Shown here piece by piece: positions 5,288 to 34,391 of a stretch of 34,391 nt of DNA. The notes beneath the pieces were generated by a model, which worked only from the letters and a program-made list of their open reading frames with translations, had not been told where the DNA came from and ran no database searches. The stretch is from a virus. Where the stretch lies: positions 1 to 34,391 of the IMG/VR virus record IMGVR_UViG_3300028228_000421; one strand, 5' to 3'. How positions within the stretch are numbered: position 1 is the first letter of the stretch; each line of letters starts with the position of its first letter. The position numbers were made by a program, and so were the translations under genes.

Positions 5288-5892
5288 TATGATACGCTAT
5301 TTCTCCCTATTACGTTATATTTCCATGATTCAATTACGGTTTCATATTGTCCGTAATTAGATATTACAGTATCAATGATTTGCCAGTTGCCGCGCACGTG
5401 AAGAAGACGAAGTAGCGTTGAAGAGGGATCATCTGATGAAAATATTATTGGTTCCAAAATTATTCTTTTCACGCTTCGCAATGGCGCATTAACTTGCTTT
5501 GTATAAAAATACCGATGAGTTGGGATTGTGCGAGAAATAACTTCGCCTAAGGGCCTGATTATTCTTGTAGTTTCAATCGTTACATTTAATGTCTCATAGC
5601 TTTCCCCTCGCCCGCCTTCAGAGACCCCGGTGACGCCATAAAAAACGCAGTCGAAATAAACGTGGGTTGCGTCTTGCGTCTCTGTTGGCGGATTGAACAA
5701 ATAAAGATTTGCGTATCCTTCCGCCCTGTAGCCCGGACGCAAGACCTGCCTGGCGTCCCTAATCTTATCTTTTCGGATAGCGTATCGCCGTTGCAACTCG
5801 GTCAGGTTCGATTGTCCAGTTGTAACCTTGTCCCCGGCCTGCCGGATAAGCGTGTCCGCGCCTAGATATTTGATGTTAGCGCCGTTGTTCAT
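5287..5892 (-). CDS. Hypothetical distal-tail protein (201 aa)
   Basis: It follows the tape measure gene directly with an ATGA overlap, the position usually held by distal-tail or tail-tip hub genes in siphophages. It is rich in Ile/Arg/Tyr with alternating beta-type patterns (TLNVTIETTRIIRPLGEV). The DNA here is visibly more AT-rich than the neighbouring tail genes, which may mean a separate origin. There are no catalytic motifs. The distal-tail role is inferred from position only. Confidence 0.78.
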   Translation of the reverse strand: MNNGANIKYLGADTLIRQAGDKVTTGQSNLTELQRRYAIRKDKIRDARQVLRPGYRAEGYANLYLFNPPTETQDATHVYFDCVFYGVTGVSEGGRGESYETLNVTIETTRIIRPLGEVISRTIPTHRYFYTKQVNAPLRSVKRIILEPIIFSSDDPSSTLLRLLHVRGNWQIIDTVISNYGQYETVIESWKYNVIGRNSVS

Positions 5893-7721
5893 GCCATTAC
5901 CTGTTGCGGGAGTTTGGGTTCAATTTTTTCAAGGATTGCTTTGATCGCGGTTACGATTGATTCCATGGATTGCGCTTCTGGCTTTTTGGAGTCTGGCCCC
6001 TTGCCTTGCTTGCTCTCGCCTTCGATTTCCTTTTCGGCTTGTTTCTTTTTTTCAGACTCCCCCTTCATCGCATCCATTCGCGCATCAAGCTCTTCCCTAA
6101 GAGTGCCGCCCTTTGTCCTGTCGGCCATTGGGATATCCCGATCAGCGTCAATTTGCTTTTGCCTTGCGGACTTCCCGAGGTTCCTGATCTTGTCTGCTCG
6201 CGGTTGCCGACGGATTGACGGTTGATTTATTTCAACCGCATCGGCATCGGCGGCATCGGCGGCATCAATAGGTCGCTCTCCTCTTTGCCGGGAAGTTGTT
6301 GGAGCAACCGGCGGCCCGTCTGGAGCAACCGGCGGCCCGTCTGGAGCAACCGGCGGCCCGTCTGGAGCAACCGGCGGCCCGTCTGGAGCAACCGGCGGCC
6401 CGTCTGGAGCAACCGGCGGCCCAATGAAATCCGCTGCCGAAATGCCAGCCAAGCCATCCTTAACTCCTTCTGTGATTTTCTCGCCAATGCCTTGCGCCGA
6501 TTGTGAAAGCGCAACCTGAGCTGCGGATTCGGCTTTTTGATAGGTGTCATATGCGCCAAGAACATCTTCCACAATGTAAGGAGTTGTGCTTTGCGCATAA
6601 TCAAAAGCATCTTTAATTGATTTGCCCGCTACCTGCATTCCTACTCTTGCGGACTCAGACGCAACAATCATTGCGGAATTTGCCTCAATCAATGGCTGTA
6701 CCCCGGCCTGAAGAGAAGGGAACACTACCGACAACGCATTGATAACATTCAGTGCCGCATCAATCAGTATCTTATTGAACTCAGACCCAGCATAAAATAG
6801 CCCTTGGAAAAGTAATGTTGTAACATTTGGGATTAAGTCCGCGCCAGCCAGATTAAAGAAGTTTTCTCCAACTGCAACTGCGTATTGAGCCATTGCTATC
6901 AGCTCATTCCCGATGTCTTTCACTCTTCCGTACATCTTCAGTCCGATAGCCTCAGCCGACGCGCCAAAGTTAGAAATTAACGCGGCTAGACCTTCTCCAA
7001 ATGACGCGCCGGAACCAGCTGCGTCTAATGTCGTTAACGATCCGATAAGCTCATTGATTGCTGGCAAAACTTCCGAGAGAAGCCCTGCAGAAAATTCTGT
7101 GCCTTTACTTTTAATGGCAGCAAAACCATCGCCAAAATCATCAAACGCTTGATTTGATTTATCCAAAACGTCAGGCAGGCTTCCAAGCTGATCTTTTGAT
7201 CGCTGGATTTGCCCATCAAAATCTCTCAAGAGCGGAAGCAATTTAGACCCGGACTTTCCAAAAACGCCCATGGCTGCGGCAGCTCTTTTTGTCGGGTCAT
7301 CAATTGCAGCAATCCCGGCAGACATGATTTGCATTTGCTCCGTGGGTAATTTGCCCTCCAGGTCTGCGGCGGTTAGGCCCATGAGCGCGAGCGCGTCAAC
7401 CGCCTCGGCGGTTCCTTCGGACGCGTCTTGGATAGACTTCTGCATTTTTGCAATAGCCGGACCAACATTCTCAGCTCCCGCTCCTGCATTTTGAAACGAC
7501 CTTTCCAGAATTGCCAGATTGCCAGCCGTGTCTCCCGTGCTGGAAGCCAAGTCGTTCAACCGTCCTCCCATGTCGAGCGCGTCGGAAAATGACGAAATGA
7601 CTGCCCGCACCGAAATGAAGGCGGCAGCCATTCCAGCAATCGACCCCATAGCGCCCTTTATGCCGCTGCGAAAAGCCTTAGCGTCGGCCCCTATTTTGAA
7701 ACTGAGTGCTTCAACGGCCAT
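5889..7721 (-). CDS. Tail tape measure protein (610 aa)
   Basis: This is the longest late gene. The N-terminus (ALSFKIGADAKAFRSGIKGA) is a typical tape-measure start, followed by Ala/Gly-rich amphipathic helix with the FGKSGSKLLPLL motif seen in many siphophage tape measures (about residues 150-165). Hydrophobic segments lie in the middle, and the C-terminal region contains six PPVAPDG repeats followed by a highly charged Lys/Glu/Arg-rich segment. The family sets tail length and is ejected with DNA. With 610 residues the predicted tail is modest, below about 100 nm. The gene overlaps its upstream neighbour by 11 bases and the next gene by ATGA. Confidence 0.92.
   Translation of the reverse strand: MAVEALSFKIGADAKAFRSGIKGAMGSIAGMAAAFISVRAVISSFSDALDMGGRLNDLASSTGDTAGNLAILERSFQNAGAGAENVGPAIAKMQKSIQDASEGTAEAVDALALMGLTAADLEGKLPTEQMQIMSAGIAAIDDPTKRAAAAMGVFGKSGSKLLPLLRDFDGQIQRSKDQLGSLPDVLDKSNQAFDDFGDGFAAIKSKGTEFSAGLLSEVLPAINELIGSLTTLDAAGSGASFGEGLAALISNFGASAEAIGLKMYGRVKDIGNELIAMAQYAVAVGENFFNLAGADLIPNVTTLLFQGLFYAGSEFNKILIDAALNVINALSVVFPSLQAGVQPLIEANSAMIVASESARVGMQVAGKSIKDAFDYAQSTTPYIVEDVLGAYDTYQKAESAAQVALSQSAQGIGEKITEGVKDGLAGISAADFIGPPVAPDGPPVAPDGPPVAPDGPPVAPDGPPVAPDGPPVAPTTSRQRGERPIDAADAADADAVEINQPSIRRQPRADKIRNLGKSARQKQIDADRDIPMADRTKGGTLREELDARMDAMKGESEKKKQAEKEIEGESKQGKGPDSKKPEAQSMESIVTAIKAILEKIEPKLPQQVMA
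6301..6426 (-). repeat. 21-bp tandem repeats in tape measure gene
   Basis: Five identical 21-bp units start at 6301, 6322, 6343, 6364 and 6385, and a sixth at 6406 diverges after 17 bases. Each encodes PPVAPDG in the tape measure protein. Perfect identity, including synonymous positions, suggests recent expansion or active homogenisation. Confidence 0.97.
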
Positions 7722-13279: not shown

Positions 13280-15055
13280 TTAAATCTCGTCGTCTTCGCT
13301 TTGCTTCGGCTCACCTAAGAGCCCGTCTTTTCCCACAAGGGTTATTGGTCGCCGCACCCCGCCGTCTTCTTCCCATGCTTTTTTGACGTTGGCGTTGATT
13401 TTTGGCAGCCCTAACTGCGCCCGAAAGGTCGCCTCGTCCTCGTTATTTGGGGTGATTGATCCCGATCTGACGCCGACGCCATAGGCATCCATTTGGCGTT
13501 TTGTGTTTTCGATGCCCACGTCTGGCTCGTCCTCGGCATCATCGCCATCAGGGTCATCGGTTTCGGAAACAGTTGCTTCGCCGCCCATGTCGTTCGGCGT
13601 GAACATCTTCATTTCCCGGTCTTCAATTTTCATCCCGGACGCTTCCTCTTCCGCAAGCTGCGCCTTTTTGCGCGTGATAACGTCTCTGGCCCTTTTCTGG
13701 CAGAACTCTTGATAAGTGGTATTCCCGTCCTCCTCGACAATGGTCGAATCTAGGACCAAACCGAACTTGCTATCCTCCCGGCGCTGCTGCCGGTCCCGGC
13801 CCTCGTCGATGCTGATCCGGGGCGGCTTGGTGAATCCCCATTTGAGAAATCCGCCCTTGTCCTGCCCCGGGTAAGCCGGGAGCATTCCGTTTTTGATGGC
13901 AACTGAAATTGCGTAGCCAACTTGCCGACGAGCGCAAGGTTCCAGCAGCGATTGCCGATCAGTAACCGCGATGCGGGCCTTGGTGTTTTCGGTGCGTTGG
14001 CTGGTCCCGTTCGCTTCGCCGGGTTTCCAGCCCCACGAATAAGGCCAGTTTGCCGCCGCTAAACATTTGCGATACGTCCGGTCCTGAAATGATTCCCAAT
14101 CTGCGCCGGGACGATTGTTAATATGTTGCTCCAATTTTTGCCCGGAGCTTGCCTTCATGTATCGGATCAATCCGCCGTACATCGTCTTGACTTCCATTCC
14201 GTCCGGGGTGCCGTCGTTAGATTGCAGAGAGAGCGGGTCATCCTCAGATGTATCGCCCTCGCCGGTCTCGTTATATTCGAGCAACCCGATGGCCGAAGCA
14301 ATCAAGCCAGCTTGCTGTTCCCATTCGTCCGACTGAGCAATCACGCGGAAATCTTCGATGCATGAAGAGAAAATCGGGAAGCCCCGAGCCTGGTCGTTCC
14401 ATTTTGGCTCGAAAGTGTGGACAACATAATTTGCCGCCAAGTCTTCAAATTCGCCGTTTGTCTCGCCGAGTTTTCGATAAGCCATCGGTCGCTCGTTGCG
14501 GGTCATGATTACGCCGTTGCGCATGATAAGTCCTTTATAGTCACCGTCTTTTAAAACTTGGTCGGCTGCGGAAAACCTTTCCCATTGGCCGATTTGGCGA
14601 TTGGGAATGTCCTGAACCATTGGCCATCCATTGTCAGACTCCGAGAGCATTTTGATCGTGTCACCAGCCCGGTCAATGGCAACGGATTGCTGATAAAGAT
14701 TCGTCACAAAATCGTAATTGGTGCCGCGAATGTCGCACGTCGGGTACCATTCTTCGATCAGCCACCTTCGAGCTTCCTTGCCCCATTCTTCGTCCGCGCC
14801 AAAGAACACGGGGAGCCATGCATTCCCGACCGCAAACATTGCCTTTTGGCAAATCACGCCTTCGACGACGCCGAAATTTGCATAAAGTTTATCGGAAAGA
14901 AACGATGTCGTGAGCCAGTCCCGATAGGTAATCAATTTCTTGAGCGGGTCAAGCACGCGGAGCGGAACAGATGGGACACGGCCACCGCCATTTTCTGCCG
15001 CTTTTAGAAAAGTTCGGGAAGAAATTGCGTTGCCGTATTGATCGAGGATGGCCAT
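13280..15055 (-). CDS. Portal protein, lambda family (591 aa)
   Basis: The protein contains the lambda gpB-type elements: the N-terminal DWLTTSFLSDKLYANFGVVEGVI segment, a central DLAANYVVHTFEPKWNDQARGFPIFSSCIEDFR block and the later WPYSWGWKP motif near residue 345. The last ~100 residues are acidic and charged. It forms the dodecameric DNA channel at the capsid vertex and docks the terminase. It follows a 97-residue gene with a one-base gap and precedes the S49 protease, the standard lambda-like order. Confidence 0.92.
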   Translation of the reverse strand: MAILDQYGNAISSRTFLKAAENGGGRVPSVPLRVLDPLKKLITYRDWLTTSFLSDKLYANFGVVEGVICQKAMFAVGNAWLPVFFGADEEWGKEARRWLIEEWYPTCDIRGTNYDFVTNLYQQSVAIDRAGDTIKMLSESDNGWPMVQDIPNRQIGQWERFSAADQVLKDGDYKGLIMRNGVIMTRNERPMAYRKLGETNGEFEDLAANYVVHTFEPKWNDQARGFPIFSSCIEDFRVIAQSDEWEQQAGLIASAIGLLEYNETGEGDTSEDDPLSLQSNDGTPDGMEVKTMYGGLIRYMKASSGQKLEQHINNRPGADWESFQDRTYRKCLAAANWPYSWGWKPGEANGTSQRTENTKARIAVTDRQSLLEPCARRQVGYAISVAIKNGMLPAYPGQDKGGFLKWGFTKPPRISIDEGRDRQQRREDSKFGLVLDSTIVEEDGNTTYQEFCQKRARDVITRKKAQLAEEEASGMKIEDREMKMFTPNDMGGEATVSETDDPDGDDAEDEPDVGIENTKRQMDAYGVGVRSGSITPNNEDEATFRAQLGLPKINANVKKAWEEDGGVRRPITLVGKDGLLGEPKQSEDDEI

Positions 15056-15056
15056 A

Positions 15057-15350
15057 TCAGCAAAAGAAAACTCGAGCTTTGTTGGTGGCGCGACGGGTTA
15101 AAAATGACGCAAGCTCGACAGTGGTGTGAGAATCAAACCAGGAAAGGGTTTTATCCGCCGCCGTCATAATCACGGCAACCGAAAGCGCGGGGTCAACCTG
15201 AAATGAAAAGCTCTTGTTTGTTGCGCTGGCGGAAATCATGACCTTGCCGGAACCTTTAACAATCTCGAACTGGCCAGTCACAAGGGCCTCGATTACGCCG
15301 CGCCCTTGGAGGCTGGCTATCCTGAGTAAAACGCTAACGAGTGGAGTCAC
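15057..15350 (-). CDS. Small protein at head-joining (gpW) position (97 aa)
   Basis: A 97-residue frame begins with GTG at 15350; an in-frame TAG lies two codons upstream, which fixes the upper limit. A second GTG about 23 codons further in is an alternative start. The sequence alternates beta and helix and ends in ELASFLTRRATNKARVFFC. In lambda-like phages the gene between the large terminase and the portal encodes gpW, but I see no gpW signature, so the function is open. It ends one base before the portal ATG. Confidence 0.6.
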   Translation of the reverse strand: MTPLVSVLLRIASLQGRGVIEALVTGQFEIVKGSGKVMISASATNKSFSFQVDPALSVAVIMTAADKTLSWFDSHTTVELASFLTRRATNKARVFFC

Positions 15351-15362
15351 ACACTAGAGAGA

Positions 15363-15370
15363 GTGTCAAA
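15363..15370 (-). other. TTTGACAC intergenic motif
   Basis: The minus strand reads TTTGACAC 12 bases upstream of the GTG start at 15350. A near copy (ATTGACAC, 15471..15478) overlaps the terminase stop codon at the other end of this 123-base gap. Nothing else was identified in the gap. Confidence 0.45.
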
Positions 15371-15473
15371 GGTGGGGCGGGTATTTCATGCGGATAAATC
15401 AAACAAAAACCCGGCCGCGAATTTCTTCAACGAACCTGCCCCGCGCCCCGCCTCTGACAAGACTGCCGCCGTG

Positions 15474-17285
15474 TCAATGACTGCTTTCTTCGGTCTCCGG
15501 CTCCGGTGCCCCTACCAACTTGTAAAGAAACGCCATGAAGGTAATTCCGATCTCGCAATCCCAGTAATGGTTGGGACGCTTTCCGATCTGCCGCCAGATT
15601 CCGCGCTTGCTGTCCTTCGTTTCTGACTCCATCGAATCGACGTAAAGCTGGCAAATGTCGTCGGGGATCTGGTGCTCCTCCATCGCCCGCAACCGTGAGA
15701 AAACGTCTTTGAAATACGTGTTGGAAAACTCCAGCACCTTGATCTTTTGGCCCTTTACGTGGTGCGCCTTGCCTGTCATGTATTCGATTACTCGCTGATA
15801 CGGGACAAGCAAGGTCGCCCGTTTCCCTCGCGTCTTGGTAAAGTTGTTAATGTCCCGGCCACGCATTGCGCTCCATTTGTATTGATGGCAAAAATCCAAG
15901 GCATCTGATTTCCAGTTGCCGACATCGAGCGCGAAGGCCCCTGACTTCAGACCGTAATGCTTCACCGCCTCGTCCACCTCCTCAATTTTCTGCAACTCCT
16001 CGCAATACACCAGCCGGGACCCGCCACCGCCAAACGCGCGAATGCAAACAGGGAAGCGGTCCTTTTGCATATCGGCAAACCCAAAACGCTGATCTTCGCC
16101 GTTAATTTGCGGTGCCTCTTCAGCCGCGCCTTTGTCGTAGTCCTCAACCCGGTAGCCTGCCGCGCCCTTAGTGTTGACTATCGGAATCTCTTTGTCCTTG
16201 ATCGTCCAGAATTTCGCCTCTTCTTTTTGAGTAAATGCTTTCAACTCCTCAATGCTCCCGCGCCGCAAGGAATCTTTTGCGCGTAAAAAGCTCTCGATTA
16301 TGTCGGCCCAATCACGCCACCAAAGCGTATAGCCGGAATAGCGGAACGATTCATGCCCCGGAGAATTGTTGAAATTGGTTTGCACGTACTTCCAATTCTG
16401 CACTAGTTCCCGGCGCACTCGCTCACGGTTTTCAATCACGCCGTCACACTCGGGGCATTGCATTCTCACCGTCTGCCGGACCGCTTTCCAGTTCCATTCT
16501 TTGGTTTCTATGTTTCGAGTTTCTGGAGTTTCGTCCCAGCACAAAATAAATTTCCCGTCATCTTCCCGCCGAGTCTCCGGTGAAAAATACTTTTCGCAAT
16601 GCGGACATTGAACATGAAAAATTTTCTGCGTCCCTTGATGCCACCACGCGCCCCATTCATCCCAATCAGACTCCCCATATTCATTTGCAATCTGTTCGCC
16701 ACCCTGTGAAACACTCAGCACTTTCTTATTTCTGACTGCATTTGCACGGCGCAAAATCTCCGCCATCGTTCCCTTTTTCCACCGCCACATTTCGTCATTC
16801 AGAATGTAGTGAATCGTTTTTGATTGCAGGCCGGAGAGCGATGGTCCTTGGATCTGAATAAACATCGCGGGAGTGATGATGTGTTCCTTGGTAATGTCGT
16901 CCCGCCCAAGCCCTGCCACGATGTCCCGCGTGCCTGGAGACTCACGCAGGCACGGAAGAAGCTTCGTCTTTGCGAAAAACGCGGACTCAGAATCCGTCTG
17001 CGTTGTAATCATCATATTCCCCGGCCTCTTCTTTAGTGCCCTGGCAACCGCGATTTGCTCGAAGCCTGTCTTGCCGCCTTGCACCCCAGCCAGCACCGAT
17101 ACGCCCCATATTTTAGGATCGTCCCATGCCCGCATTGGTTCAATGAGCATCGGGATATTATCCCGCCTAAAGTCCTCAGCAATCGGCGAACCTGGGAATC
17201 GCACGTACTTTTCCGCCCACTCATCCAACGGCAAATCGTCATCTTCGGGAATCGAAGCGAGCAGGGATTTAGAAATAAAGCTCAT
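15474..17285 (-). CDS. terL: Terminase large subunit, GpA family (603 aa)
   Basis: The ATPase domain has a Walker A variant GVQGGKT (residues 67-73) and a Walker B segment HYILNDEMWRW with the acidic pair at 164-165. Two CPxC zinc knuckles (CPHCEKYF, CPECDGV) follow at about 220-290, which is characteristic of lambda GpA-type terminases. The C-terminal nuclease domain includes GAFALDVGN with a metal-binding Asp. The enzyme cuts concatemeric DNA and drives packaging. It starts two bases after the small subunit stop. Confidence 0.95.
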   Translation of the reverse strand: MSFISKSLLASIPEDDDLPLDEWAEKYVRFPGSPIAEDFRRDNIPMLIEPMRAWDDPKIWGVSVLAGVQGGKTGFEQIAVARALKKRPGNMMITTQTDSESAFFAKTKLLPCLRESPGTRDIVAGLGRDDITKEHIITPAMFIQIQGPSLSGLQSKTIHYILNDEMWRWKKGTMAEILRRANAVRNKKVLSVSQGGEQIANEYGESDWDEWGAWWHQGTQKIFHVQCPHCEKYFSPETRREDDGKFILCWDETPETRNIETKEWNWKAVRQTVRMQCPECDGVIENRERVRRELVQNWKYVQTNFNNSPGHESFRYSGYTLWWRDWADIIESFLRAKDSLRRGSIEELKAFTQKEEAKFWTIKDKEIPIVNTKGAAGYRVEDYDKGAAEEAPQINGEDQRFGFADMQKDRFPVCIRAFGGGGSRLVYCEELQKIEEVDEAVKHYGLKSGAFALDVGNWKSDALDFCHQYKWSAMRGRDINNFTKTRGKRATLLVPYQRVIEYMTGKAHHVKGQKIKVLEFSNTYFKDVFSRLRAMEEHQIPDDICQLYVDSMESETKDSKRGIWRQIGKRPNHYWDCEIGITFMAFLYKLVGAPEPETEESSH

Positions 17286-17287
17286 GA

Positions 17288-17989
17288 CTAAATGGTTTTC
17301 AACATATTCTTGAAATCGTTTTTGAACTTTTTCTTGCGGGGTTGCGCAAGCGATTCAATTTCAGGAAGGGATCGGTCAGAATAAATTAATGGATGATCTC
17401 CGAATTCTTTTTCAATTAACGAATCAAACTTTGCCATGATTGATTCGCACTCTTCTTTGATTGCCGACTTCAAAACCACGGCGTCGCTTTCCCGAGAAAA
17501 ACGAAGCTCTGCAAGCATCCTTTGCGCCCGGACCAACCCGCGCTTTTCTTCGAGAATGTCGTCAACCTCATCCGCAAAATCTTTAGAGTTTTGAATAGCC
17601 CACCTGCCAAGCTCCAGCGCGTTGATCCGCCCGTCGTCACGAAATGCCGAGCATCCCTCTTTCTTCCATCGGCCTAAAGTCCGTCGGTCGCACCCAATAT
17701 GTTTTGCCGTTTCTGATATTGACTGGAACCATTTCGGGGCGGTCTTGATAACCTCTGGCATCCCAGACATCTCATCCATCGTTGCGTCCTGTTCCTTCTC
17801 GGCCAGTTCAACGGCTTTCTCTTCCCGCGCCGACAGCGACTTCCCGGCTTTTACTTTTTCGAGTGCTCGATTGAGCGTGATCCTCTCGTTTGCTATCCGT
17901 ACCTTTTCGGCAATCTGAGATTTTGACGACTTCTCTGCCGTCGCTGGTGCCTGCTTTTTTTTATCGCCATGCAATTGCGTCAATGTCAA
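17288..17989 (-). CDS. terS: Terminase small subunit, Nu1-like (233 aa)
   Basis: The central segment FQSISETAKHIGCDRRTLGRWKKEGCSAFRDDGRINALELGRW (about residues 90-130) is a winged helix-turn-helix of the Nu1/DNA-packaging type. A basic N-terminal helical region and a C-terminal helix (ERIxLEE-like EEKRGLVRAQRMLAELRFSRE) for oligomerisation flank it. It lies immediately before the large terminase gene. It should bind the packaging start site and recruit the large subunit; a candidate site lies near 19476..19762. Confidence 0.85.
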   Translation of the reverse strand: MTLTQLHGDKKKQAPATAEKSSKSQIAEKVRIANERITLNRALEKVKAGKSLSAREEKAVELAEKEQDATMDEMSGMPEVIKTAPKWFQSISETAKHIGCDRRTLGRWKKEGCSAFRDDGRINALELGRWAIQNSKDFADEVDDILEEKRGLVRAQRMLAELRFSRESDAVVLKSAIKEECESIMAKFDSLIEKEFGDHPLIYSDRSLPEIESLAQPRKKKFKNDFKNMLKTI

Positions 17990-17992
17990 ATG

Positions 17993-18849
17993 TCATTTTA
18001 TCTTAATCAACTTCATTCCGTAGTTGTTTATTCCCTTCGGTATGACAATACCATGCTTTCTGATAAGCCTGTTTTTTTGAAACGGCTTATAATTTACATG
18101 ATGCTGCCAACGGCCCCAGCGTCGCCTTATTGTGCATACGTCGGGATGTTGCCGCTGCAAGGATTTTGCCATTTCAAGACGCCCATCAAACCCTGCGTCC
18201 TGCTTGTAAAGTAGATCGGTGTTCCCGCCTTTCATCTTTAGTGTTGCCTGCTTGTTACACAAAAACCGTTAAACAAAATGGTGCAATGTCCATCTTTCAG
18301 AATTCTCAAACTCAGGTCGGTATCTTCATTGTATCTTCCCCGCCAACGATAGCTGATTTTATTTGAAAGAAGTATGCACGAATAAATTCTTGCATTCAGG
18401 CAAAATGGAGTCTTGACCGTGCCTTTAGCCGTTGATGATTCGACCACCGCGAATGATCCATATTGAAACCCCGCCATATGAACATTCATGTACCTCTCAA
18501 CAAATCCCTCGGCTATCGCAAAAATAGACCCGTCAGAAACTTTAATCTTGTCTCCTTTATACAGCCGGACAAACCCTCTCAGGTTGTCATCCATAATCCA
18601 ATGTCGACCGTGGCCTTCGCTTATCGAATGTTCCCAAACCCAATTTCTCGCAGGTATGCCGCCCTGACCTAAATTCGAGAAAGGTAAAACAAGAATCTTT
18701 TGTGGATCAATCACCGATGCATATTGCGCAAATTCATGCGGCTCAATTACAATTCGATAATCAACTCCAATTGATTCTAGCGCGATGCTTGTATAGCGAG
18801 TTTTCCACCGTCCCTTGCTGATTATATAAATCGGGAATTTAGGATTCAT
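17993..18849 (-). pseudogene. TET-associated-type glycosyltransferase, split by -1 frameshift
   Basis: Frame 1 runs from the ATG at 18849 (ATGA overlap with parB-like gene) through MNPKFPIYIISKGRW, FSNLGQGGIPARNWVW, the DDN motif (87-89) and GRYNEDTDLSLRILKDG (171-187), then stops at 18238 soon after ILFNGF. The rest of the family sequence (CNKQATLKMKGGNTDLLY, RRRWGRWQHHVNY, NRLIR) continues in the -1 frame to 17993. The two frames join at a T5 run (18261..18265), giving 285 residues, a full-length enzyme. Known relatives glycosylate modified bases in phage DNA and occur beside TET/JBP dioxygenases; none is seen here. The frame change is a one-base deletion, an assembly error, or a functional -1 slip (the Phe codon re-pairs perfectly). 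Confidence 0.85.
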
Positions 18850-19475
18850 TCTGGTTGCCCAATAAACTGAGAGTCTTTTTCGTTGCCCTTTGGTCGCGAT
18901 GGATACCAAATAAATTTAGCGGAGTCCGGGAGCAATTGACCGATACATTTTCCAAATGCAATCACCGCGGCCTCGCTTGGAAAATGTACAATTATTGTTC
19001 GGACTCCTTTTGGCTGGTTTTCATATTCGGGCATATCTTCCCATTCCTGTTCTGGATTTTCTACAAAATCGCCCGGCGTGATGATGTTTTCCAGTTCTTC
19101 GTCCGTCCATCCGCTGAACGTCAAGCTCGTTAAGTCGATAGACTTTAATTCAGTGATTTCGATTTTAAGCATCTCGTCATCCCACCCCCCGCCAATTTCC
19201 GCAAGCCGATTGTCGGCTAGGATATACGCCCGCCGCTGCGTGTCGGTAAGGTGCCCTAGCCTGATGCACGGCACGTCCGCCAGCTCCAAAAATTGCGCGG
19301 CCAGCACCCGGCCATGACCCGCGATGATTCCGTCGTCCTTGTCGATCAACACCGGATTACAGAAACCGAACTCCCTGATGCTCCCGGCAATCTTCGCAAC
19401 CTGGCCAGCGTCGTGCTTCTTTGCATTTCTGGCATACGGCACCAGCGTTTCAGTTTTCAGCGTTTCGATTTTCAT
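18846..19475 (-). CDS. ParB-like nuclease-domain protein (209 aa)
   Basis: The N-terminal half is a ParB/Srx domain: LVPYARNAKKHDAGQVAKIAGSIREFGF, then the core IIAGHGRVLAAQFL (about residues 50-63), and the RRAYILADNRLAE helix. The C-terminal segment (VIVHFPSEAAVIAFGKCIGQ...KFIWYP) matches an extra domain that follows ParB modules in many phage proteins. Stand-alone ParB-like proteins often lie next to phage terminases, sometimes fused to methyltransferases. Here the gene overlaps the glycosyltransferase (ATGA), so the pair may act together on the DNA to be packaged. Confidence 0.88.
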   Translation of the reverse strand: MKIETLKTETLVPYARNAKKHDAGQVAKIAGSIREFGFCNPVLIDKDDGIIAGHGRVLAAQFLELADVPCIRLGHLTDTQRRAYILADNRLAEIGGGWDDEMLKIEITELKSIDLTSLTFSGWTDEELENIITPGDFVENPEQEWEDMPEYENQPKGVRTIIVHFPSEAAVIAFGKCIGQLLPDSAKFIWYPSRPKGNEKDSQFIGQPE

Positions 19476-19762
19476 AAATTATTTTCCAGCCATTTAATGA
19501 GACATTTCCTTTTTGGGTTGCGTGCTCGTTTTGAAGGGGGTTCCGAGTATACCTAGCTGGGGCGGCTGTGGCGTAGGGTCCCCGTGTGGGGGGTGGGGTC
19601 TGGCATCGCTCCGGTTTGGGTAGGAGTGGCCCGACGTTGCCCGACGAATGGCTTTGATTGCAGGGTGATAGAAGGCTCTTGTCATGGAGAAATAGAATTC
19701 CTAGAGGATTATTCTTGACGAGTTGGAAAAGTTGACGTTACCCTTTTTTCAGAGAGTTCCGA
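19476..19762. other. Non-coding gap with G-rich segment, candidate packaging (cos) region
   Basis: This is the longest gap in the late operon (287 bases). It contains a very G-rich plus-strand segment (19556..19620) with GGGGCGGCTGTGG, an inverted GTCCCC/GGGGG pair around 19578..19592, and a tandem direct repeat GCCCGACGTT/GCCCGACGAA near 19629..19648. Two TTGACG hexamers occur near 19713 and 19730. A 63-codon frame (19494..19685) crosses it but looks like a by-product. Its place upstream of parB-terminase genes and its odd composition make it the best candidate for a cos site or terminase-binding region. This is an inference. Confidence 0.45.
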
Positions 19763-23324: not shown

Positions 23325-24254
23325 TCAAGCTGGTATCAGTTCTTGCTCGACGTGGTGTTCAACGGAGGCGAGGTTTCTCACGGCTTGGTTGTAATAAGCC
23401 GTCTTTAGTTCGATGCCTAGCCCTTTGCGGCCATTAATCACGGCCCCATAGACCTCGCTACCGACCCCCATAAACGGCGTCAATACAACTTCGCCGGGAT
23501 TGCTCCACAAAACGCAAGCGCGTTCAATTACGTCAAGTTGCAGTGGGCACAAATGCTTCTCGTCATCTGACTCCCGCGCAATCTTTGCGTTCAGTGTGAG
23601 CGTTTGCCGTATGTCCATCCATACGGGAGACGCGTAAGCCCTCCATATGTTGTGAGATTTCTTTAATCCACTGAGTCCCTTGGTCGGGTCACTGCTCCCG
23701 CTGTATTTGGTCAAGCCATCGGGATGAGTTACCGGGCATTGATTTTCTCCTGAGTTGCGAAATGCCAGCAAGTAATCAGGAAGCCCAGCGCGTGACTTTA
23801 GGCTGTCCTTTTGTATCTGCTTGTGCATCAAGCCTAACGCTTTAGTTCTGACTGCCTCGATGAGTGGATCTTTCCATATCGTATGGCGAGAGTGATAGAC
23901 GAATCCATGTTTCTGGAATAGGCGGATAATGTCTCCGCTGAAATCCTTGATGCCAATGTATCCATCCCGCTCCTTCATCGCCGGGATGTCCATGCAATGA
24001 ACTGCGCAATTCCGGCCCGGCTTAATTACCCGAGCAAGTTGCTCAACGACAAATGAGAAGTGAGCGAAGAACGCATCGTAATCTTTGCAGTTGCCAAGAT
24101 CTTCAGGGCTGTCGCTGTAACAGTATAAATCCGCAAATGGCGGTGAAAAGATGGAGAAATCCACCTTGCCTTCAGGCAGTGATTTCATTGCCTCGACGCA
24201 ATCGCCGTTGATGAGTGAGTATTTTTCAGATGTCGTCTGATTGATTATAGCCAT
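23325..24254 (-). CDS. DNA N4-cytosine/N6-adenine methyltransferase, beta type (309 aa)
   Basis: Motif IV is SPPF (residues 37-40) near the N-terminus, and the AdoMet-binding motif I region TPFMGVGSEVYGAVINGRKGLGIEL lies near the C-terminus. This order defines the beta class. SPPF rather than DPPY favours N4-cytosine, but N6-adenine cannot be excluded. The central region holds the target recognition segment. It overlaps the helicase gene by 10 bases. A phage-encoded orphan methyltransferase normally protects against host restriction. Confidence 0.9.
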   Translation of the reverse strand: MAIINQTTSEKYSLINGDCVEAMKSLPEGKVDFSIFSPPFADLYCYSDSPEDLGNCKDYDAFFAHFSFVVEQLARVIKPGRNCAVHCMDIPAMKERDGYIGIKDFSGDIIRLFQKHGFVYHSRHTIWKDPLIEAVRTKALGLMHKQIQKDSLKSRAGLPDYLLAFRNSGENQCPVTHPDGLTKYSGSSDPTKGLSGLKKSHNIWRAYASPVWMDIRQTLTLNAKIARESDDEKHLCPLQLDVIERACVLWSNPGEVVLTPFMGVGSEVYGAVINGRKGLGIELKTAYYNQAVRNLASVEHHVEQELIPA

Positions 24255-25594
24255 GATGGTATTTGTAATTGGTTGGTTGGTTGATTTTTCTTTTCGATGC
24301 GAAGCTCGTCGTTAATGAGTTCAACTAGCTTTGCAAACATCTGTTCGGATTGTGCGGCCTTGCGATTGAGGTTTTTCAAAACGCCTGACTCGCCTTCGCT
24401 TGAAATGATATCTACGGTCACTGTGTTTTTTTGCCCGAATCTCCACGACCTGCGTATTGCTTGATACCATTGCTCGTAAGAATGCGATGGGAAAAATGTC
24501 TGGTGAGCGCAATGCTGCCAATTAAGCCCGAATCCACACACGCTTGGCTTTGTGACCATGTTCATCGCTTGACCTGTTGCAAATGCTTCAATTTTCTCTT
24601 CCTTTTCCTCGTCTGAGTCTGCGCCAGATACCTGCACGCAATTAGGTATCAGCTTGGCGAGCAAGTCCCCCTCTGGATTAAGATGGCACCACGAAACCGA
24701 TGCGCTATTGTGCGCTGATGCCAGTTGCGCGGCCAATTCGCACCGCTCGTTGATTGTGCGCTTTCGGTCCTTGCGTTGCTCATCTAGTCCGACCGCTGGC
24801 ATGTCGAATAGATACTCTGGATTTTTAGTCAGTGACCTGACGACGTGTTCAACAGTTCGCAATTCCGGCAAATCATATCCAGGCTGGTCAAATCCTGCAT
24901 CGCTTGGCTTCTTTACGGCCCGCGCCCATGAGCACACCCATTGCCAGAACATACTCTTAGCTGCGTGTTTTTTGATCCTCCATTTAGACGTGTCTCCGCC
25001 GTCGTGGTTGAAGTATTGCGCCAGCATTTCTACCCGTCGCAGATATCCAAGTGCCTCGCTGGATGTGCCTAGCTCAACATGATCGTTAGGCGCGGCTGTT
25101 GCGGTGCAAAGAAGCCGGTAAGAAAGTTTACGCATAAAGTCCGTGACCTGAGATTTGATTTGCCCATCAAAGTTTTTAAGGATGCTGGACTCATCGCAGA
25201 CCACCCCGCCGAATTGCTGCCAGTCAAACTTGTGAAGCTGTTGGTAATTCGTGACCGTAATCGGAGCGGCGACCTTTCCGTCTCGGGATTGCGCGGCCTC
25301 TATCCCAAACTTGCCCGCTTCTCTGACTGTTTGCGCTCCAACTGAAAGCGGGGTCAAAATCAATACAGGTTTGCAGGTTTTTTCGACTACGTTTTGAGCC
25401 CATACAAGCTGCATGGGAGTTTTGCCGAGACCACAATCCGCGAAGATTGCGGCGCGGCCCTTGCGAACAGCCCACTCGGTGAGAGACCGCTGAAACGGAA
25501 AAAGGAAATCGGGCATATACACCGGATCAAATCCAGACGATTCTCCAATGTGAGTTTTGTTTTTGAGGAAATCCTCGTAGTTTGCGTATGTCAT
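24245..25594 (-). CDS. SF2 DEAD/SNF2-like helicase (449 aa)
   Basis: I chose the ATG at 25594 (MTYANYEDFLKNK); the upstream extension of the open frame lies in a structured leader. Motif I is ADCGLGKT (residues 52-59), motif II is CDESS (133-137), motif III is LLCTATAAPND, and motif VI is QAIRRSWRFGQ near residue 385. Phage relatives are commonly next to VRR-NUC nucleases, as here, and act in recombination or replication-fork processing. The last residues (KKNQPTNQLQIPSWL) are encoded by the leader of the methyltransferase gene. Confidence 0.92.
   Translation of the reverse strand: MTYANYEDFLKNKTHIGESSGFDPVYMPDFLFPFQRSLTEWAVRKGRAAIFADCGLGKTPMQLVWAQNVVEKTCKPVLILTPLSVGAQTVREAGKFGIEAAQSRDGKVAAPITVTNYQQLHKFDWQQFGGVVCDESSILKNFDGQIKSQVTDFMRKLSYRLLCTATAAPNDHVELGTSSEALGYLRRVEMLAQYFNHDGGDTSKWRIKKHAAKSMFWQWVCSWARAVKKPSDAGFDQPGYDLPELRTVEHVVRSLTKNPEYLFDMPAVGLDEQRKDRKRTINERCELAAQLASAHNSASVSWCHLNPEGDLLAKLIPNCVQVSGADSDEEKEEKIEAFATGQAMNMVTKPSVCGFGLNWQHCAHQTFFPSHSYEQWYQAIRRSWRFGQKNTVTVDIISSEGESGVLKNLNRKAAQSEQMFAKLVELINDELRIEKKNQPTNQLQIPSWL
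24255..24283 (-). promoter_or_regulatory. CA-rich SD-less leader of methyltransferase gene
   Basis: The minus strand reads CAACCAACCAACCAATTACAAATACCATC directly before the ATG. There is no AGGAGG-like element. It lies inside the end of the helicase gene. Confidence 0.6.
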
Positions 25595-25628
25595 AATCAA
25601 AAAGAGCCCCCGCACCCGTTTGTAGGAA

Positions 25629-25713
25629 CGAGCCGACAAGCGCGAAGAGACGCACAGGTACGAGGGCAAGGTGTTGATTTTATTCTCTTCGCTGTCATGA
25701 GTTTGTCGGCTCG
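25629..25713 (-). ncRNA. Large hairpin in the untranslated leader of the helicase gene
   Basis: Two nested perfect inverted repeats face each other: CGAGCCGACAA (25629..25639) with its complement at 25703..25713, and GCGAAGAGA (25642..25650) with its complement at 25684..25692. Together they form a 20-bp stem with a 2x10 internal loop and a 33-base apical loop. The element fills most of the 137-base gap between the VRR-NUC and helicase genes, and a T5 run lies close to the helicase ATG. It may control helicase translation, protect mRNA ends or act as an attenuator. No known family was recognised. Confidence 0.6.
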
Positions 25714-25731
25714 ATTTGGATACTGTCGCTT

Positions 25732-26307
25732 TCAGCCGGATATGGCAAGCGGTTTCTTCCCGTCGGTGTCGGCGAGAACCTGGTTGATTTCCTCGCAGAC
25801 CTGTCCGCGAGTCATGCGACAAAACGGGTCTCGAATCTTGGATAAAAGTCCTCTGGCTGCGGCGAGTTGCTGCGCTAGGGTCGCCGTCACGGTTAGGGTG
25901 CTGTCTTCCAATTCCGCCAGGTGGTCAAGCCCTTCCCGGTACGAGCGGATCACGCGGACGATAGCCCCGTTCGGAGCCGCTTCCAGTTCCCGGTGGCATT
26001 TGTATTGCTGCGGGGTCGGATTCTTCCCCGGCAATTTCACTTCCCAGTGGACGCTCAGGCCGTGAATTTCAAAGGCGATGTCGGGCATCCCTGGCGCAAT
26101 CTGGCTGCGTTTTCGGGTGGGCTGCATTCGGGGCCGGTGACCGCGACGGTATAGCAGACTGTAAAGCTGCCCCTGCAATTCCATTTCGGACTTGGCAACG
26201 GCACCCGCTTCCGCCTCGTCGTATGTCACTCCAGATTTACCAAAGGATTTCCGGTCCTTGGTGGACATCATGAGCTTTTGCTTGTCGGTCAAATCTCGGA
26301 TATCCAT
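25732..26307 (-). CDS. VRR-NUC domain nuclease (191 aa)
   Basis: The nuclease core is APGMPDIAFEIHGLSVHWEVKLPGKNPTPQQ, giving the PD-(D/E)xK residues Asp76, Glu89 and Lys91, with an N-terminal Glu in the helix SEMELQGQLYSLLYRRG. The C-terminal ~70 residues are helical. VRR-NUC proteins are structure-specific nucleases and in phages pair with SF2 helicases, as here with the following gene. The start overlaps the previous gene by 19 bases. Confidence 0.9.
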   Translation of the reverse strand: MDIRDLTDKQKLMMSTKDRKSFGKSGVTYDEAEAGAVAKSEMELQGQLYSLLYRRGHRPRMQPTRKRSQIAPGMPDIAFEIHGLSVHWEVKLPGKNPTPQQYKCHRELEAAPNGAIVRVIRSYREGLDHLAELEDSTLTVTATLAQQLAAARGLLSKIRDPFCRMTRGQVCEEINQVLADTDGKKPLAISG

Positions 26308-32214: not shown

Positions 32215-32468
32215 AGCCGCCTCCCTGGCTTGATCTCAGCATGAGGATTAAAGGGTCCCCCGGGAATGGTTTTGCCGATTTGATCTTTTGCGCGAATGCG
32301 TCCTGAGATGGTGGCGACCATCGAGCCGAGCGCGATTGCCGCAAGGATTGCGTCGGTGATTCCTCCCGCGAATTCCTGCACGTCGTACTTGAAAAAGATG
32401 GCGACGATGGCAAGGATGCCGGACACAAGCGCGGCAAGAATCGTGCGGGATGAATACCACGGTTTCAT
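32211..32468 (-). CDS. Holin-like two-TM protein (85 aa)
   Basis: The start MKPWYSSRTILAALVSGILA is typical of small phage holin-like proteins (KPWYxSK/RT). Two TM segments are visible (about residues 9-27 and 39-58), followed by a polar, basic tail (RIRAKDQIGKTIPGGPFNPH). It lies two to four genes upstream of the M15 lysin. Two-TM topology corresponds to class II holins. The assignment is good by context and topology. The first 16 codons are also present at 1..50. Confidence 0.78.
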   Translation of the reverse strand: MKPWYSSRTILAALVSGILAIVAIFFKYDVQEFAGGITDAILAAIALGSMVATISGRIRAKDQIGKTIPGGPFNPHAEIKPGRRL

Positions 32469-32770
32469 TACATTTTGCCGCGAGCGATGAGGTTTTGAAG
32501 GGCAAGTTCCACAGTGGCATTGACGACCGAGGTGGACGCCTGAATGCCTGTAGCAATGGCCCGCGCTTGGATCTCGTCAACGGCCTGCTTACGCTTGATT
32601 TCCCCGGTGGCCTTGCTGTCAGCCATAGATAGGACAACATCGAGAGCGATGGGCGCGAGTTGCTCCAAGAGGGTTGCCGCAGACGATGCTAGGATCGGCG
32701 CGAGGAAATTAAATAATGCAACGGATGAGCCAGTAATCCAGGCCCAGAGTCGGAGGAATGTGTTCTTCAT
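32468..32770 (-). CDS. Small membrane protein of lysis region, second copy
   Basis: This is identical to 50..352 as part of the terminal repeat; in this copy it reads directly into the complete holin-like gene (TAATG overlap), so this is the intact genomic context. Confidence 0.8.
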   Translation of the reverse strand: MKNTFLRLWAWITGSSVALFNFLAPILASSAATLLEQLAPIALDVVLSMADSKATGEIKRKQAVDEIQARAIATGIQASTSVVNATVELALQNLIARGKM

Positions 32771-33075
32771 AATTTTTCTTTGACGTGTTCGAGAGCCCGC
32801 GTGTTGTCCGCCAATGCCTTAGTGGCCCCGGCTAGGAGGACGGCCAATTCCCGGTTTGTGGTGATGAGATGCTCCGTAAAGTCCTTGCTCAGGGCTGTAA
32901 ATTCTTGCCGTGCTTGCTGGATTTGACTGGTAAAATACCGGGTCATCCACGCGCCGCAGATTAGGAAAATAATCAACATCGCCACAAACATCCAGCGGTC
33001 GGTCTGTTGGGCCATAAAATTTGCAGTTTCAAAGAGACCAGGCAGGTCAGTGGGATCGGGGATAGAAGGCGGCAT
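32767..33075 (-). CDS. Membrane-anchored coiled-coil protein, second copy
   Basis: This is identical to 349..657, part of the terminal repeat. Confidence 0.82.
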   Translation of the reverse strand: MPPSIPDPTDLPGLFETANFMAQQTDRWMFVAMLIIFLICGAWMTRYFTSQIQQARQEFTALSKDFTEHLITTNRELAVLLAGATKALADNTRALEHVKEKL

Positions 33076-33104
33076 GATATAAAATTGCTAAAGAGCACTC
33101 AGCC

Positions 33105-33521
33105 TCATGGTTCTGGCGTTGGCTCCGGCACGGGATCAATCGTCACGGTGCCGTCTTCGTTAATCGTGATGGCGGGAATGCGGCCGTTGATGGCGGCGAG
33201 GCGAGCGAGGCCAGCTGCGTCGCCTTGCGCGGTCAGGAATCCGGCCACTAGCTCGCCAAATGATTGATTGATCGCAAAGACCGACGCGGCCTTGGTGCCG
33301 AGAGCGGCCAGCACGGCAGCGGGATCGGGCGCGGACCATAGCCGCTGACTCGCATCGTCGAGATGGTTGAGGATTACGTCACGAGTCTGCGTTGGCGCGA
33401 TAAGCAACTCGCGGGCTGTTCGCTGTGCTTGCGTCTCCGGCTCTGTGGTCAGGAGAGATTGCGCGGTTGCGTTAAGGGTGAGGGCCGCAAGGGCCGCGAG
33501 GATTGGGATTAGTTTTCTCAT
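33105..33521 (-). CDS. Secreted 138-aa protein, second copy
   Basis: This is identical to 687..1103, part of the terminal repeat; the signal peptide is intact. Confidence 0.82.
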   Translation of the reverse strand: MRKLIPILAALAALTLNATAQSLLTTEPETQAQRTARELLIAPTQTRDVILNHLDDASQRLWSAPDPAAVLAALGTKAASVFAINQSFGELVAGFLTAQGDAAGLARLAAINGRIPAITINEDGTVTIDPVPEPTPEP

Positions 33522-33523
33522 AA

Positions 33524-34391
33524 TTATTGCTCAGTCACGCGGATTTCCTGGACATATAAGTTGTCGGTATTTGTATCTCCGGCATTGGTTCTAATCGCCC
33601 AAAATGTTACAATGATTTGCGCTGCGGTTGATGGAATCACGATAGAATCGCTTTCGTAGAGTTTCGGATCTGTCGCTGAGGTGGGCGCGGCGTAATCGCT
33701 CCCAGTCACGGAGTCTCCCAAAATAGTGCCTCTCGCGGAGCTGAGCATTCCAGACAGGGCATTTCCTCCAGTGAGTTCAGCCGCGGTCAAATAGTTTAAA
33801 TTAAACCTGAGCCTAAGATTTCCGGCGCTAGTGCCATTAACCGCCACAACCGCGCCGATCTTAATTGTTTTCCCCGCCCATTCGCTCGGCGAGAGCGGCC
33901 CTTCGAGAACCGAGCCGTCCGCCCCGTCCACAAATGTCACAACCTGAGCAGTCCCAAAACTGGTGACGGTAAGCGACAAATTACTGTAAGTGCTCATCTT
34001 TGCCGCTCTCCACGCGAGTCCGGCCTTCGTGCGGCGAAAGTAGGCGTTGGGGATGTTCACCGTCCCAGCATTGATCGTCACGGCATCTCCGCTGGCGTCT
34101 CCAAGGGTCGTGTTGCCGCTCGCATTGACGGTGACAGGCGCGATAGTGCCCCCACTGATAGTGCCGGTGTTGACCGTCGTTCCCGCGAGCGTGCCGCTGG
34201 TGATGGTGCCCCCGGCTGCTGCGACACCGCCGAGGCCAACAAGCGTCTGATTCCCGGTGTTGATGCCGGAGGACGTGCCGGAGAAAATGCCGTCCTGCGT
34301 AGCGAGAGTGCCGAGGCCGAGGGTGCCCCGTCCGGCGGTTGCGTCGGCATCATCCAATAGGCTTAGGCCGAAGGCGCTGGCTTGGCTGTCG
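33524..34391 (-). CDS. Signal-peptide tail fibre, 3' part cut by window end
   Basis: This is identical to 1106..1973. The N-terminal part with the signal peptide lies beyond the window end and is seen only in the left copy. The ATG-like start at 34357 is internal and should not be taken as a gene start. Confidence 0.85.
   Translation of the reverse strand, partial: DSQASAFGLSLLDDADATAGRGTLGLGTLATQDGIFSGTSSGINTGNQTLVGLGGVAAAGGTITSGTLAGTTVNTGTISGGTIAPVTVNASGNTTLGDASGDAVTINAGTVNIPNAYFRRTKAGLAWRAAKMSTYSNLSLTVTSFGTAQVVTFVDGADGSVLEGPLSPSEWAGKTIKIGAVVAVNGTSAGNLRLRFNLNYLTAAELTGGNALSGMLSSARGTILGDSVTGSDYAAPTSATDPKLYESDSIVIPSTAAQIIVTFWAIRTNAGDTNTDNLYVQEIRVTEQ

Follow-up and report, generated by a model that had tools for sequence, protein, structure and literature searches.

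The stretch of viral DNA analyzed here (the window; all 34,391 nucleotides of IMG/VR record IMGVR_UViG_3300028228_000421) encodes a phage glycosyltransferase of the TAGT family, GT-A type, and loci of this kind are paired in a nearly obligate manner with a small, previously undescribed domain that we designate D. Both the identity of the enzyme and the linkage between D and TAGT are established by computation. The reading that we favor, and consider probable, is that the two constitute a module for DNA glycosylation that depends on D and not on TET.

The ends of the record form an exact terminal repeat of 1,973 bases (positions 1-1973 and 32419-34391), an overlap that may stem from long-read assembly or from true terminal redundancy. 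Once this repeat is counted, the unique genome measures ~32.4 kb, in agreement with the 32-kb genome of a preliminary description of this DNA. When a stretch of the window was searched for exactly among genome contigs, no match was obtained. The genes of interest lie on the minus strand in the order ParB-like protein, TAGT glycosyltransferase, TerS-like protein, and gpA-family terminase large subunit (TerL), as the preliminary description had proposed and as the profile matches bear out. The ParB-like protein (209 aa; 18846..19475), recognized by ParB_N and PHROG matches, consists of a ParB_N-like domain (approximately residues 1 to 135) followed by D. The TAGT gene likely starts at the ATG at 18849 (MNPKFPIY), forming an ATGA overlap with the stop of the ParB-like gene. 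The TerS-like protein (17288..17989), with a helix-turn-helix, is assigned from weak HTH matches and from its place between TAGT and TerL, and TerL itself (15474..17285) matches GpA_ATPase (E value of 4.3e-27) and GpA_nuclease (E value of 4.1e-11). Elsewhere in the window, a large protein with a tandem PPVAPDG repeat, possibly the tape measure protein, is encoded at 5889-7721, and at 23325-25822 a helicase-like protein adjoins an N6/N4 methyltransferase. Counterparts of the latter pair, 50-56% identical, are found ~1.5 kb from the TAGT gene of another locus (L066:2265-4537).

The glycosyltransferase occupies two minus-strand frames. Frame A (18238..18909) matches the Pfam TAGT profile (PF20691) with an E value of 3.6e-41 and 141.8 bits, against a curated cut-off of 27.5, over positions 1-198 of 205, and it also matches PHROG 842 (beta-glucosyl-HMC-alpha-glucosyltransferase). 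The metal-binding acidic motif (WIMDDN, 18583-18600) and the ED motif (YNEDTDLS, 18310-18333) are both conserved in relatives. Frame B (17993..18262) has no family match of its own; it is homologous to a conserved C-terminal extension (KGGNTD..., RWGRWQHHVNY...) that most relatives read in frame, and it shares 56-70% identity with the C-terminal ends of six relatives. The glycosyltransferase identity put forward in the preliminary description is thus upheld by the profile search. The name TAGT reportedly originates with Iyer et al. in 2013. The TAGT of Nonlabens phage P12024L shows 28% identity in an alignment that covers 83% of the query. A sequence search for a solved TAGT structure found none, the only match being a chance one to an apolipophorin.

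The break between frames A and B very probably reflects an error of sequencing or assembly. The two frames overlap at a T5 run (18261..18265), precisely where the preliminary description had placed their junction. The length of this run is unlike that in three near relatives, picked out by DNA pattern (L081, L082, and L083), in all of which TAGT is a single open frame (3/3); the split is therefore not a property of the lineage. L081 corresponds to window positions 13814-19553 over 5,742 bp with no substitutions and only two single-base differences in homopolymer length. One splits TAGT, and the other, in an A8 run at the TerS start (17955..17962), shifts the TerS body off its ATG; the TerS start in L081 is MAIKKKQAPATAEK. 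L083 shares both homopolymer differences over 12.5 kb, along with 36 substitutions, and L082, 96-98% identical in two long alignments, likewise has more bases in the A run where TerS begins. In 61 of the 76 relatives checked, the T run at the joint reaches only 2-4 bases at its longest. An error is favored because two coding-damaging homopolymer differences occur 0.3 kb apart, with no substitution, and because the run is not conserved. In nature, the TAGT locus would then be one intact enzyme gene, a point that we take as part of the favored reading and regard as probable along with it.

The preliminary description had left error, inactivation, and regulated slippage side by side. A true private frameshift that inactivated TAGT in this phage, as when a modification gene loses selection, is possible in that broken copies are found in nature (in-frame stops are present in the TAGT genes of L033 and L020, so natural gene loss occurs), and the shift would delete the conserved C-terminal 70 residues. 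We nevertheless consider it improbable, as the three near relatives are intact, the comparison with L081 over 5.7 kb shows two homopolymer-length differences against zero substitutions, and the second of these harms the beginning of the TerS gene, which is essential. Slippage programmed at the T run, by which a single gene would give two products of different length, can be given hardly any credence. A homopolymer is indeed present at the joint, and a T run is found there in the near relatives too, but these differ from the window in its length and read one frame throughout, the run length is not kept among relatives, and a conserved slippery heptamer was not seen. Since the slippery run is not conserved, we reject regulated slippage; error is strongly favored and inactivation unlikely.

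D is a domain of ~65 residues that forms the C-terminus of the ParB-like protein in the window, where its core (EWEDMPEY ... IIVHF ... IWYP) lies at 18900..19046 on the minus strand. Its consensus is W..EW..MPEF.Q...P...I.V.F...ED...FAKLIGQ.(L/I)T.KTKSIWYP, or, in shorter form, W..MPEF...IIVHF...FAKLIGQ...KTKSIWYP. D loci were detected with an HMM made here; for the domain search, a broad alignment (A1) was too variable and a narrower one was used. With the HMM, D was present at 76 of 80 TAGT loci, at the C-terminal end of a ParB-like protein (33 loci), as part of a ParB-D-TAGT chain (1 locus), fused N-terminal to TAGT (12 loci), as a small ORF (29 loci), or within a longer ORF (1 locus). Of the four loci without D, two offer hardly any sequence upstream of TAGT. 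Where D is present, it is in most cases either fused to TAGT or ends within 75 nt of the TAGT match. The reverse search, by D alone, retrieved 80 viral and 10 genomic loci, some of them on contigs that also belong to the first TAGT set, and TAGT was present in 88 of the 90; at the other two, the stored stretch stops just past D. When a single D query was run against 50,697 phage records, all nine matches were located at a TAGT (9/9), and with a D-TAGT fusion as the query, further Aeromonas, Tenacibaculum, Pectobacterium, and Vibrio phages aligned across both parts. Cultured phages with D-TAGT include Vibrio phages 1.076.O and 1.124.O and Aeromonas phages 65 and Aeh1. D gave no family match in Pfam or NCBIfam, and PHROG 22103 (function unknown) weakly matches one of its members. 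By these searches and the tests in both directions, D is a previously undescribed domain paired nearly obligately with TAGT. It was found in none of the TET-linked TAGT loci examined, eight from a single lineage, and within this small set TET-linked and D-linked TAGTs are separate. The preliminary description had named TET as the usual partner of the enzyme and had overlooked D, which is the constant partner in this branch.

Several loci have unusual architectures. A single open frame of 1,217 residues (L075:4163-7813) comprises D, TAGT, and a family-A DNA polymerase (PF00476; E value of 1.8e-22), and two D-TAGT chains (L005:5596-7284 and L054:5554-7293) carry a C-terminal uracil-DNA-glycosylase-like domain that scores below the Pfam cut-off. 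Tandem TAGT copies are present in L002, L021, L029, L033, L064, and L067, each copy having its own D in L021, L029, L064, and L067.

Structure models were obtained for D and for an intact relative of the window protein, the D-TAGT fusion of L021. The AlphaFold2 model of the fusion (pLDDT of 89.9 and pTM of 0.90) retrieved almost exclusively GT-A enzymes as top matches when compared with the PDB by Foldseek, the closest solved folds being protein and sugar glycosyltransferases, and many TAGTs when compared with viral models. D alone was modeled with a pLDDT of 78.1 and a pTM of 0.48. The MPEF segment is predicted more firmly in the fusion than in D alone, which suggests that D packs onto the transferase.

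The N-terminal part of the ParB-like protein follows a different pattern. Its ParB_N match (E value of 1.5e-4; 22.2 bits) is under the curated cut-off of 26.3, below what marks a partition ParB, and no ParA was present among the proteins scanned. The protein belongs instead with phage ParB-like proteins (PHROG 620; E value of 1.6e-44) and ParB-methyltransferases (PHROG 498; E value of 4.3e-43). Its nearest ParB relative is the ParB-methyltransferase gp03 of Verrucomicrobia phage P8625, which is 52% identical over residues 2-158 and is followed by two more genes and then a gpA-type TerL. For the terminase families modeled, TerL is found within ~3 kb downstream in about two-thirds of the ParB-D loci and rarely at loci with D alone, indicating that the ParB part, and not the glycosyltransferase, tracks the terminase neighborhood. 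The suggestion in the preliminary description that modification is tied to packaging is thus weakened, although the gene order that prompted it stands. ParB was also considered as the constant partner of TAGT and rejected, since D without ParB, as a small ORF, is about as common as ParB-D (29 and 33 loci).

We searched for enzymes that could prepare an acceptor base. No Tet_JBP (PF12851) match was found anywhere in the record, in accordance with the preliminary description, nor in any of 42 related records, while the positive control, Nonlabens phage P12024L, gave a match directly upstream of its TAGT; we therefore discard the idea of a TET elsewhere in the record. This absence is genuine, and it is normal for the D-TAGT branch, so that what had seemed unusual about this genome is typical of its relatives. 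Thymidylate-synthase-family enzymes were likewise absent from the 42 records (0/42), several of which exceed 60 kb. Among four isolate records, one (Vibrio phage henriette) has such an enzyme, and two of ~47 kb have neither a TET nor a thymidylate-synthase match. In a set of 36 records that includes the window and P12024L, a C5 methyltransferase was present in 3 records, the window not being one of them, and an N6/N4 methyltransferase (PF01555) in 8. We rejected the former as a general acceptor maker on the basis of these counts and the latter because it is not constant. The earlier idea that another enzyme encoded here makes the acceptor thus finds no TET, thymidylate-synthase-type, or C5-methyltransferase candidate in this genome or in most relatives. 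As many of the records are fragments, these absences are weaker than the counts imply.

In the module that we favor, the GT-A TAGT enzyme and D would operate as two parts. The 12 loci with natural D-TAGT fusions and the one ParB-D-TAGT fusion count in favor of this arrangement. D would bind the transferase directly, whether within one polypeptide or as a separate protein, a contact that the linkage and the structure model point to. In the phage of the window, D would be supplied by the ParB-like, DNA-associated protein, whose gene immediately precedes TAGT, its stop codon overlapping the TAGT start codon. The module would glycosylate phage DNA without TET, and the sugar would probably shield the DNA from host nucleases. 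The best argument from gene context that the module likely acts on DNA is by analogy with P8625, in which a methyltransferase occupies the position of D and TAGT. The TAGT fusions with a family-A DNA polymerase and with a weak UDG-like domain also point to DNA as the acceptor, and so, by analogy, may the TAGT of phage T6, which acts on phage DNA (PMC13216743).

The same three lines of evidence argue against a non-DNA target. It could be proposed that the target of D-TAGT glycosylation is a protein, lipid, or surface sugar, with D as the acceptor or its binder; the closest solved folds are consistent with this, as is the absence of known base-oxidizing or hydroxymethylating enzymes in most of these phages, and we judge it unlikely. 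Another proposal overlaps with the favored reading and departs from it solely in where the acceptor originates, which would be the host or an unrecognized phage enzyme, such as a divergent TET-like oxygenase or a divergent dCMP or dUMP hydroxymethylase, in a pathway that is conventional. Profile searches can overlook divergent enzymes, many records are fragmentary, and the enzyme of phage henriette belongs to the thymidylate synthase family; the lack of TET and thymidylate-synthase matches in the 42 records and in the two isolates of ~47 kb makes this proposal unlikely. To return to the TET-independent module, its chemistry is incomplete in that no acceptor-making enzyme is recognized here or in most relatives. 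This raises the possibility, which we advance only tentatively, that D and TAGT represent a widespread sugar system for phage DNA in which no enzyme of a known pathway readies the base and D acts as a base-presenting or activating subunit. If DNA is modified without a known oxidizing or hydroxymethylating enzyme, current pathways for phage DNA miss a step.

D separates D-linked from TET-linked TAGTs, indicates which genes should be coexpressed in assays, and points to cultured phages in which to look for the modified nucleoside. Solitary TAGTs, a large share of the family, lack an assigned function, and a constant companion offers a handle on them. Compared with the TAGT family at large (PF20691 and PHROG 842, including TAGT of phage T6), the window enzyme is alike in profile, in GT-A fold as modeled for its relative in L021, and in DDN and ED motifs, but it differs in having no TET or recognized hydroxymethylating enzyme and in having D, which the eight TET-linked loci lack. 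The TET-TAGT-methyltransferase operon of Nonlabens phage P12024L has TAGT in common with the window, whereas there TET lies directly upstream and D is absent. The ParB-DNA methyltransferase fusion of P8625 shares the ParB part and its place in the genome before the terminase genes, with the difference noted above. The available text of PMC13216743 describes T6 TAGT as adding a second glucose to alpha-glucosylated cytosine and reports that 288 of 753 phage genomes have TAGT without alpha- or beta-glucosyltransferase, suggesting novel transferases among these; it makes no mention of a companion domain or of a ParB linkage. The window resembles these solitary TAGTs in having TAGT without the T-even glucosyltransferases, and the linkage to D fits the open group that they form.
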